This document shows positions 52,840 to 56,358 of a DNA stretch of 64,000 nucleotides, one piece after another. Position 1 is the stretch's first letter. Each line of letters starts with the position of its first letter. A program made the position numbers and the translations under genes. A model generated the notes under the pieces. It saw only the letters and a list, made by a program, of their open reading frames with translations, made no database searches and had not been told where the DNA came from. Source of the DNA: an uncultured Verrucomicrobiota bacterium (GTDB taxonomy: Bacteria; Verrucomicrobiota; Kiritimatiellia; CAJWTS01). The stretch lies in NCBI GenBank assembly GCA_913047795.1, contig CAJWTS010000004.1, forward strand, positions 1-64,000, given 5' to 3'.

Positions 52840-53792
52840 GAACGCTATCCGACATCGGCGAGAAGGAGGCGGTGCGACGATTCACAATGCAACTCAAACA
52901 ACGCGGCGACGTGATTGCCGGTCCCGGCGACGATTGCGCCATTGTCCGGTCGCCCAACGACTCGGTGAACGACTGGCTCTACACCTCCGATGCGGTGATT
53001 GAGGGTCGCCACTTCGGAGCGGATACCGCTATGAACGAAGTGGGGCACAAGGCACTCGGCCGGGTGCTGAGCGACATCGCGGCAATGGGCGGCGAGCCGG
53101 ACTGGTGCCTGATCGATCTGGTTGCGACCGGCGAAGAGACCGTCGAGGACATGGACGCGCTCTACCGCGCTATTGCGGACCGCGCCGACGAGGCTGGACT
53201 TAGCGTCGTGGGCGGGGATCTTGCGCGCGGGCCTTGTCTGGAACTTCACGTGTTCGCGGCAGGACATCTTCCGCAGGGCACCGCCATCATGCGATCCGGC
53301 GCACAACCGGGCGACATCCTATACGTCAGCGGCACACTTGGCGGAAGTATACGCGGCAAACATCTGACGTTCGAGCCCCGCTTGCGGGAAGGACAATGGT
53401 TGCGCGAACGCGCGTGGGCAACGGCCATGATCGACGTGACAGACGGCCTCTACAGTGATCTCTGCCAGCTCTCCGAGATGAGCGGGGTCGGGGCCGACAT
53501 CGCAGCAGGCGCGATCCCGATTTCGGCGGCCGCCACAGAGGCTCCCACCACACCCCTGCAGGCCGCGCTCTGCGATGGCGAAGACTACGAACTACTGTTC
53601 ACGGTGCCGCCGGGCAAGCAGTCCGAATTTGAGACGAGTTGGAAATCGACCTTTGAGCTCACAGCTACTCCAATTGGAAAGATTACAGATATTGGCAACG
53701 GCATTTGTGTGGTCGATCAGAATGGAGATTCCATCATCCTCGACAACCAGGGCTATGACCATTTCGCGGGAAATCGTAACGGACAGCCCTGA
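52836..53792 (+). CDS. thiL: Thiamine-monophosphate kinase
   Basis: 318-residue enzyme that phosphorylates thiamine monophosphate to the cofactor thiamine diphosphate. PGDDCAIV, TSDAVIEGRHF, ALGRVLSDIAAMGGEP, VVGGDLARG and MIDVTDGLYSDL are its ATP- and Mg-binding motifs. It starts with GTG in a GTGA overlap with the glycosyltransferase and overlaps tsaE by 38 bases. Confidence 0.95.
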   Translation: MRTLSDIGEKEAVRRFTMQLKQRGDVIAGPGDDCAIVRSPNDSVNDWLYTSDAVIEGRHFGADTAMNEVGHKALGRVLSDIAAMGGEPDWCLIDLVATGEETVEDMDALYRAIADRADEAGLSVVGGDLARGPCLELHVFAAGHLPQGTAIMRSGAQPGDILYVSGTLGGSIRGKHLTFEPRLREGQWLRERAWATAMIDVTDGLYSDLCQLSEMSGVGADIAAGAIPISAAATEAPTTPLQAALCDGEDYELLFTVPPGKQSEFETSWKSTFELTATPIGKITDIGNGICVVDQNGDSIILDNQGYDHFAGNRNGQP

Positions 53793-54210
53793 CGCGACCC
53801 GCGATCTGGCCGCCGGCCTCGCGGCGGGCCTGAGCGGCGGCGATGTCATCGCGTTGCAGGGCAACCTCGGAAGCGGCAAAACCTGCTTTGCGCAGGGTCT
53901 TGCCGCCGCCCTGGGCATTCGCGTGCCGATCACGAGTCCGACTTATACGATCATTAACGAATACAACGCTTGCCCGCGCTTTTTCCACATTGATCTGTAT
54001 CGTCTGCAAAACGAAGATGAGGCATGCCTCGCCGGCGTTGCCGAATGTCTGGCCGCGGGCGGCATCGCGGTCGTGGAATGGGCCGATCGCGCAAGTGGTC
54101 TCTTCCCGGACACAACGATTGCGTGCCATTTTCGAGTGGGAGAAGGCGATGAACGTCGAATCACGATCACCGTCCCTGCGTCGCACGGGTTTGATCCAGG
54201 TACGCTTTGA
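53755..54210 (+). CDS. tsaE: tRNA threonylcarbamoyladenosine biosynthesis ATPase TsaE
   Basis: 151-residue P-loop protein needed with TsaB, TsaC and TsaD to make t6A37 in ANN-decoding tRNAs. Walker A is GNLGSGKTCFAQGLA, then SPTYTIINEY, HIDLYRL and VVEWADR follow. The start at 53755 gives the usual length; the frame upstream is the thiL sequence in another frame. Of its partners, none is in the window. Confidence 0.94.
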   Translation: MTISREIVTDSPDATRDLAAGLAAGLSGGDVIALQGNLGSGKTCFAQGLAAALGIRVPITSPTYTIINEYNACPRFFHIDLYRLQNEDEACLAGVAECLAAGGIAVVEWADRASGLFPDTTIACHFRVGEGDERRITITVPASHGFDPGTL

Positions 54211-54235
54211 CTCGAGTACGGCGAGAGCATATAAT
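54207..54235 (+). promoter_or_regulatory. Strong sigma-70 promoter at the tsaE 3' end
   Basis: TTGACT at 54207-54212, a 17-bp spacer, then a perfect TATAAT at 54230-54235. The -35 overlaps the end of tsaE (stop at 54208-54210). Transcription should begin near 54242, about five bases before the ATG at 54247. Confidence 0.75.
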
Positions 54236-54246
54236 CGCCGTACTCG
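54213..54246 (+). promoter_or_regulatory. Perfect 12-bp inverted repeat over the promoter
   Basis: CGAGTACGGCGA (54213-54224) and its exact complement TCGCCGTACTCG (54235-54246) flank GAGCATATAA. The left arm begins right after the -35, the right arm starts on the last base of the -10 and ends on the base before the ATG. It could be an operator, or a hairpin that masks the start codon in read-through RNA from tsaE. Confidence 0.75.
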
Positions 54247-56358
54247 ATGGCTGATAAACCCAAGCTCAAAAAAGAACTGAACCTGATAAGTGTGTACGCG
54301 CTGGCGACCGGCGCGACGCTGAGTTCAGGGTTCTTCCTGCTCCCGGGCCTTGCTTATGAATCGGCAGGACCGGCGATGATCCTCAGCTATCTCATCGCCG
54401 CGATTCCGCTCATCCCCGCGACTTTCAGCATCGTCGAACTCGGTTCCGCGATGCCCCGCGCGGGGGGCGCGTATTACTTCCTCGACCGGACGATGGGGCC
54501 GCTCGTTGGCACGGTCGGAGGGCTCGGCACCTGGTTTACCCTAACCCTCAAGACTGCCTTCGCCCTGATCGGCATGGGCGCGTACCTGCAATACTACCTG
54601 CCGGAGGTTCCGGGCGTACCCGCTGATCGCCTTGTCGTCTTCATCGCAGCGGGACTGGCCATTGCATTCGCGCTTTTCAATCTACGCGGAACGAAGCGCG
54701 CAGGATCCCTCCAGGTCTGGCTTGTCGCGGGCCTCATTTTGATTGTACTGGTATTCATCGGCGGCGGCGTGCCCCGAATCGACCCCAACCACTTCCGTCC
54801 ATTCTTTTCGCACGGCGGCGGTTCCATGGTCGCCACGGCGGGACTGGTCTACATCAGTTATGTTGGTGTCACAAACGTCGCCAGCATCTCCGAGGAGATC
54901 AAGAACCCCGAGCGCAACCTCCCGCTGGGCGTCTTCCTGGCCGTCGGAACGGCAATCATTGTATACGGATTAGGTACCACGGTAATAGTCGGTGTTCTGC
55001 ACGGCGAGGAACTGGCGGGCAATCTCCGACCCATTGCGCGTGCAGCCGAACAGATCTTCGAGGGCTGGGGCGGTGGATTGCTCACCGTTGCGGCCTGCCT
55101 CGCGTTCTTCGCCGTCGCGAACGCAGGCATTCTCAGTGCCTCGCGATACCCACTCGCCATGAGCAGGGATCATCTCGTGCCACGCGTCTTCCGCTCGCTC
55201 AACAGTCACCACGTACCCGTCAATGGTGTTCTCGCGACACTCGGACTTATGCTGTTCATTATCTTTGTCTTCGACGTGGAGAAAATCGCAAAACTTGCCA
55301 GTGCGTTTCAACTGCTCCTGTTCGGCTTCCTCTGCCTCGCCGTGATCTTCATGCGGGAAAGCGGATTGCACTCGTACGACCCGGGGTATCGCTCGCCGTT
55401 TTATCCCTGGATGCAACTTGTCGGTATCGCAGCACCGATATGGTTGATCGCCAATATGGGCGCCGTCACCCAGGCTTTCGCCGCCGGACTGATCGTGATC
55501 GGTGTCGCGTGGTACCTCCTCTACGCCCGTCGGCGCGTGTCGAGAGTCGGCGCCATTTTCCATGTTTTTGAACGTCTCGGCCGACGACGCCAGGCGGACC
55601 TGGATCGTGAGCTTCGCGATATCATGAAAGAAAAGGGCGCGCGGCAACATGACCCGTTTGATGACGTGATCATTCACGCCGACATTCTGAACTTTGACGA
55701 CGACACAACGTTCGAGCAGATCACGACGGCGGCGGCGGCCATATTGGCAGACCGCGTCGATATTCCCGCCGACGATCTCTCCAACGGCTTTCTACAAGGC
55801 ACGCGCATCGGTGCAACACCGGTGGCGCACGGTGCGGCTCTGCCTCATCTCCGGCTGCACGATATCAAGCAGCCTTACATGGTCATCGTGCGATCGAAGC
55901 CGGGTGTCCGGATTGACGTGGAAAGCCCACTGATAGATGATCCCGGTCCGCAATCGCGCGTGCATGCGCTATTCTATCTTGTTAGCCCGGAACACGATGC
56001 ATCGCTCCACCTGCGTATTCTCGCTCAACTCGCGCGCCATCTGGACGACGAGACATTCATGGAGAGTTGGGTCGTTGCCACCAACGACCAGCAGCTGAAA
56101 GAATTACTTCTGCGGGACGAGCGACACATCGCGATCAACTTGGCGGCTGATTCGCCGGCAGCTTCTTTCATCGGGAACGCACTCAGGGACATTGACCTGC
56201 CCGCGGGGTGCCTGGTTGCCTTGATCAATCGCGAAGGCGACACGGTCGTGCCCAATGGCAATACGATACTGGAGACGGATGATCGGCTAACGATTATCGG
56301 TGACCAGGAAGGCGTCAAATCGTTGTACGAAACGTTTCAGCCTGGCAGCCAGCCGTGA
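54247..56358 (+). CDS. Amino-acid permease fused to EIIA-like and TrkA_C domains
   Basis: 703 residues. About 12 transmembrane helices of the APC superfamily occupy residues 1 to 430 (LISVYALATGATLSSGFFLLPGLAYESAGPA; SEEIKNPERNLPLGV). A cytoplasmic PTS EIIA type-2-like domain spans about 475-620, keeping the phospho-His in GAALPHLRL near 533. A TrkA_C/RCK_C-like domain lies at about 645-703 (VPNGNTILETDDRLTIIGD). No EI or HPr gene is in the window. No Shine-Dalgarno precedes the ATG, consistent with the nearly leaderless promoter. Confidence 0.9.
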   Translation: MADKPKLKKELNLISVYALATGATLSSGFFLLPGLAYESAGPAMILSYLIAAIPLIPATFSIVELGSAMPRAGGAYYFLDRTMGPLVGTVGGLGTWFTLTLKTAFALIGMGAYLQYYLPEVPGVPADRLVVFIAAGLAIAFALFNLRGTKRAGSLQVWLVAGLILIVLVFIGGGVPRIDPNHFRPFFSHGGGSMVATAGLVYISYVGVTNVASISEEIKNPERNLPLGVFLAVGTAIIVYGLGTTVIVGVLHGEELAGNLRPIARAAEQIFEGWGGGLLTVAACLAFFAVANAGILSASRYPLAMSRDHLVPRVFRSLNSHHVPVNGVLATLGLMLFIIFVFDVEKIAKLASAFQLLLFGFLCLAVIFMRESGLHSYDPGYRSPFYPWMQLVGIAAPIWLIANMGAVTQAFAAGLIVIGVAWYLLYARRRVSRVGAIFHVFERLGRRRQADLDRELRDIMKEKGARQHDPFDDVIIHADILNFDDDTTFEQITTAAAAILADRVDIPADDLSNGFLQGTRIGATPVAHGAALPHLRLHDIKQPYMVIVRSKPGVRIDVESPLIDDPGPQSRVHALFYLVSPEHDASLHLRILAQLARHLDDETFMESWVVATNDQQLKELLLRDERHIAINLAADSPAASFIGNALRDIDLPAGCLVALINREGDTVVPNGNTILETDDRLTIIGDQEGVKSLYETFQPGSQP

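Follow-up and report, generated by a model that had tools for sequence, protein, structure and literature searches.

A perfect inverted repeat joining a near-leaderless promoter-like site and the start codon of a permease gene in an uncultured Verrucomicrobiota bacterium

The DNA analysed here, i.e., the window, is a stretch of 64,000 nucleotides from an uncultured Verrucomicrobiota bacterium (contig CAJWTS010000004.1, positions 1 to 64,000, forward strand). The features at the junction of tsaE and the permease gene are listed in Table 1. The gene order was HisG, a TPR protein (labelled by reading its translation, with no family search), a glycosyltransferase, thiL, tsaE, and the permease, followed by a convergent sodium-pump decarboxylase pair. 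Same-length homologues of the three-part permease fusion were found in many phyla, i.e., SAR324, Planctomycetota, Desulfuromonadales, and Bacteroidota. In many members of the class, tsaE leads directly, and often with an overlap, into a tsaB-like frame, and here the permease stands in that place. The nearest regulatory genes were a response regulator and a hybrid kinase, approximately 7-9 kb upstream.

Table 1. Features of the tsaE-permease junction, with positions in the window
Feature	Position	Strand	Evidence or remark
tsaE (tRNA t6A synthesis ATPase), upstream, co-directional	53755-54210	+	Pfam TsaE 3e-34; TIGR00150 above cut-off
-35-like hexamer TTGACT	54207-54212	+	5/6 match to TTGACA
5' arm of repeat, 13 nt	54212-54224	+	Sequence and repeat search; predicted missing from promoter-started RNA
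Spacer, 17 bp	54213-54229	+	Sequence
Loop GAGCATATAA, 10 nt	54225-54234	+	Holds 5/6 of the -10 bases
-10 hexamer TATAAT	54230-54235	+	6/6 match; 11 nt to ATG
In-frame TAA fixing the permease start at ATG 54247	54232-54234	+	Sequence
3' arm of repeat	54235-54247	+	Sequence and repeat search; last base is the A of the start codon
Predicted transcription start	54242	+	From the -10 spacing rule, unmapped; leader ACTCG, 5 nt
Permease, 703 aa: APC amino-acid permease, EIIA-like domain, TrkA_C (RCK_C)	54247-56358	+	Pfam 7e-51, 3e-15, 4e-14

The region between the two genes was read directly as ..GTACGCTTTGACTCGAGTACGGCGAGAGCATATAATCGCCGTACTCGATGGCT.. and contains an intergenic gap of 36 bp. The permease start codon is secure, because an in-frame TAA precedes it, zero alternative start codons lie between this TAA and the ATG, and a conserved LKKEL N-terminus comes after the ATG. 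The tsaE TGA stop codon (54208-54210) overlaps the -35-like hexamer. The original prediction of a TTGACT-17-TATAAT promoter was correct by sequence, in its elements as well as in its coordinates. By the spacing rule, transcription was placed approximately 7 nt past the -10 hexamer, i.e., at A54242. Upstream of the permease ATG, the Shine-Dalgarno (SD) sequence was absent from both the read-through RNA and the short RNA. The absence on the short message had been predicted, and none was found within 20 nt of the start. In sequence, the gene has the form of a leaderless gene, i.e., TATAAT-11-ATG with no SD-like core in the 20 nt or less before the start.

The promoter-like site scored 11/12 against the sigma-70 consensus and was at the top of nine such sites in the surrounding 19.5 kb. 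These sites occur at chance level in that region (9 found vs 8.5 expected), so the promoter call rests on position and not on rarity. TTGAC-N17-19-TATAAT was found only twice in the 3.5-Mb genome, and the second site had no downstream ORF. In this genome, TATAAT was not commoner close to start codons, with 38 cases 4-11 nt before any ATG vs 43 at 26-33 nt. ORFs of at least 80 aa followed 15 of 30 close hexamers (4-11 nt) vs 9 of 30 distant ones (26-33 nt). Three other loci, i.e., L174, L176, and L177 (G000 C20:12933, C24:16772, and C24:32125), carry TATAAT 5-11 nt before starts pinned by a nearby in-frame stop and are candidate near-leaderless genes. A reading of L174 as ftsY was rejected.

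The promoter-like site overlaps an inverted repeat. The 12-nt core arms CGAGTACGGCGA (54213-54224) and TCGCCGTACTCG (54235-54246) pair perfectly. The first base of the ATG, A54247, adds one more pair with T54212, so that the repeat is 13 bp long with a span of 36 bp. It had been described as a perfect 24-base repeat which covers the spacer, touches the -10 hexamer, and ends on the base before ATG. The repeat is indeed perfect and lies over the spacer, but it includes the A of the ATG, and 24 bases is the length of the arms and not of the full span. It shares with the -10 hexamer only the last T, the sole -10 base outside the loop. On the other side, a single base separates the stem from the tsaE stop codon.

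When sequence was simulated with the composition of the window, repeats of at least 13 bp with a loop of 3-20 arose at a rate of 0.02-0.03 per 64 kb. A sample of 460 kb from this genome contained three such repeats vs 0.2 expected; the genome-wide statements here come from genome searches and from this 460-kb sample. The stem is thus unlikely by chance within the window, yet each genome has a few stems of this kind, and some of these are T-less and follow stop codons. Long perfect T-less hairpins were seen after stop codons at L097 (16386-16412) and L098 (11725-11752), which are possibly terminators without a U-tract. The Rfam covariance models gave no match to the element, and the one sub-threshold match was located elsewhere.

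Folding was computed for the two RNAs which could carry the permease frame. The hairpin, a perfect 13-bp stem, had a minimum free energy of -23.1 kcal/mol and a fold z-score of -3.4, and 0 of 200 shuffles were equally stable. In the read-through RNA, the opening of positions -12 to +12 cost 21.5 kcal/mol (median 9.0), which ranked first of 288 sampled genes, in an approximate ranking that takes each start as the first ATG. The opening of positions -5 to +12 cost 14-15 kcal/mol in the read-through RNA vs 2.6-3.6 kcal/mol in the RNA from 54242. The sharp contrast between a free start on the short transcript and a buried one on read-through from tsaE, which had been proposed, was therefore reproduced by computation. 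However, with the stem so near to the tsaE stop, a terminating ribosome would cover the 5' arm and lower this cost, a point overlooked in the original prediction. With most of the 5' arm blocked in this way, the computed -5 to +12 opening drops to 2.6-7.7 kcal/mol. In this model, the AUG of the read-through RNA would be buried only in the absence of tsaE translation or in the interval from one ribosome to the next, and would otherwise be partly locked.

The closest genome compared, G001, belongs to the same family and is not a close relative. Its permease orthologue is 60% identical and lies behind a different upstream gene. The promoter region of this orthologue (L003 3583-3640, reverse strand) was TTTTCA-16-TATAAT-8-ATG, with the hexamers assigned by eye, and is possibly a truly leaderless start in a different neighbourhood. 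No inverted repeat was found in it; G001 was the sole same-family genome. This result weakens the original prediction and touches on its refuting condition, i.e., a missing repeat in close relatives, although G001 is more distant than that. No comparable stem was present in G012 or in distant orthologues from other phyla, whose upstream regions were read in coding orientation; on the minus strand, only the loci L003 and L004 were included, and L010, L011, and L013 were left out. Many of the distant orthologues have ordinary SD leaders. In the G001 orthologue, TATAAT keeps a short distance of 8 nt to the ATG in spite of another upstream gene, and this favours a genuine short-leader promoter. 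From this comparison, the short-leader start may be old and conserved at the permease gene, whereas the palindrome is not conserved and may be recent.

The repeat could be explained in several other ways. The original prediction considered one element as a DNA operator and an RNA switch at once, and computation favours the RNA half. As an operator, the repeat would bind a dimeric or tetrameric regulator at two half-sites of 12-13 bp over the promoter, RNA polymerase would be blocked, and the RNA hairpin would be a by-product. The palindrome over the spacer and the -10 hexamer is in the classic repressor position, and the half-site centres are 22 bp apart, i.e., two helical turns, on the same helix face. 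However, the site recurs neither at other genes nor beside a regulator gene. No second palindrome was found in the genome with 3 or fewer mismatches in 24 or 18 positions, where 3-mismatch matches were fewer than with the reversed control, and no DNA-binding regulator gene was recognised beside the permease in the stretches scanned. The absence of a second copy weakens the shared-operator idea, and a regulon operator was rejected for this reason. The perfect 13-bp symmetry is also more than most operators need. A single-site operator is possible but unsupported, and the operator explanation as a whole is unlikely. Translational coupling is a serious and genuine rival, because tsaE ribosomes would reopen the hairpin. 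The hairpin would shut the permease AUG until these ribosomes open it, so that permease synthesis on a polycistronic RNA would follow that of tsaE. A ribosome ending on tsaE sits on the 5' arm, which brings the -5 to +12 cost from approximately 15 into the low range computed above, and the opening of stems by an upstream ribosome, i.e., RNA unfolding, is an accepted, standard model of coupling (PMC12548453). However, the 36-nt gap holds no SD for re-initiation, and a negative correlation is reported between coupling and structure immediately past the stop of the upstream gene (PMC12548453). A near-consensus promoter inside the gap would be superfluous, and tsaE and the permease have no functional link. 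Coupling is distinctly unlikely as the explanation of the repeat.

The stem could also belong to the 3' end of the tsaE transcript, as a T-less terminator or an RNA-stabilising stem, with an overlap into the following promoter imposed by the short gap. Its position 1-2 nt past the tsaE stop agrees with this, and other strong T-less stems of the genome also lie after stops (L098 11724; L097 16385, between convergent genes). However, the loop is 10 nt vs 3-6 nt in those two stems. The stem is followed by UGGCUGAU with no U-tract and was not listed by the terminator scan, so an intrinsic terminator was rejected. A conserved tsaE 3' hairpin was ruled out as well, as nothing comparable, i.e., a stem of at least 9 bp after the stop, was found in approximately 29 tsaE orthologues of the class. 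A 3'-end function is quite improbable. An equally improbable explanation is coincidence, i.e., an ordinary near-leaderless promoter which happens to carry a palindrome and was noticed among many windows read. From the 460-kb rates, roughly 0.05 repeats of 13 bp near a start are expected per genome of the same size, and so the scanning of many genomes will find some; the lack of conservation in relatives points the same way. The low chance per window speaks against it, and so do the exact fit of the stem end to the ATG and of the -10 hexamer to the loop.

The reading preferred here, at a probability of approximately 0.38, is a lineage-specific hairpin on the read-through RNA which insulates the permease gene around its near-leaderless promoter by a known principle. 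The promoter, which we infer to be active, would start an RNA near A54242 without the 5' arm. This short RNA would offer an almost 5'-terminal AUG, usable by ribosomes without an SD. Read-through RNA from the thiL-tsaE operon would carry both arms, fold into the 13-bp, -23 kcal/mol hairpin including the A of the AUG, and be poorly translated for the permease. Permease expression would then be tied to its own promoter and shielded from the operon upstream, apart from brief openings of the stem by ribosomes that terminate on tsaE, and the repeat would presumably be under selection. The promoter is placed exactly so that only the 5' arm would be lost from its RNA, which counts for insulation. An internal AUG without an SD may be weak even when unfolded, and this counts against a hairpin-based insulation. 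Retention of the structure in relatives would also argue for insulation, but it was kept neither in G001 nor in the other orthologues read in coding orientation.

A bolder form of the insulation reading, which is improbable, is a chromosomal read-through lock. The 36-bp element would combine a promoter, a start-codon mask on long RNAs, and a key given by the loss of one arm at the transcription start, possibly also as regulator-bound DNA. A cell would thus use the principle of phage T4 gene e, adapted to SD-independent initiation. If the insulation reading is true, a genome with short gaps and near-leaderless starts without an SD would separate transcription units without a terminator, through untranslatable read-through RNA. 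The locus would then offer a small system in which to ask whether internal starts in such bacteria are silenced by start-codon structure and not by SD loss.

The arrangement, seen in one genome, is real and non-random, and each of its parts is already known. In Tn10/IS10, IS50, and IS200, a hairpin of the read-through RNA covers the transposase start, and this hairpin is impossible in the element's own transcript. Unlike these, the permease locus is not a mobile element and has no transposase and no IS ends. Near-leaderless promoters are ordinary in bacteria, and leaderless genes in which the -10 hexamer adjoins the ORF have a wide distribution (PMC3160421, PMC12340547). The permease resembles them in its TATAAT approximately 10 bp before the start and in its lack of an SD, but it differs in a predicted leader of approximately 5 nt instead of 0, a -35 element, and an overlapping inverted repeat; in this genome, such genes showed no strong genome-wide enrichment. 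As in coupled gene pairs with start-masking hairpins, the stem at the permease start could be opened by the tsaE ribosome. Unlike in those pairs, the stem-loop contains a predicted promoter, the gap is 36 nt, and the SD is missing.

In the T4 genes e, soc, 49, and I-TevI, a long read-through RNA folds the SD and/or AUG into a helix, and an inner promoter gives a short, translated RNA from which the 5' strand is missing (PMC3014915). In T4, the leader contains an SD, the promoter is a phage late one, and the switch is temporal, whereas the permease is a chromosomal gene with the -10 hexamer in the loop and a nearly leaderless predicted short RNA, in a case known from sequence and computed folding. 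Even so, in the computed fold of the read-through RNA, the permease start codon is locked into a stable helix, as in gene e. The correctly placed 11/12 proximal promoter match would yield, from an unmapped start, an RNA without the 5' strand. By its logic, T4 gene e is the known system closest to the tsaE-permease junction.
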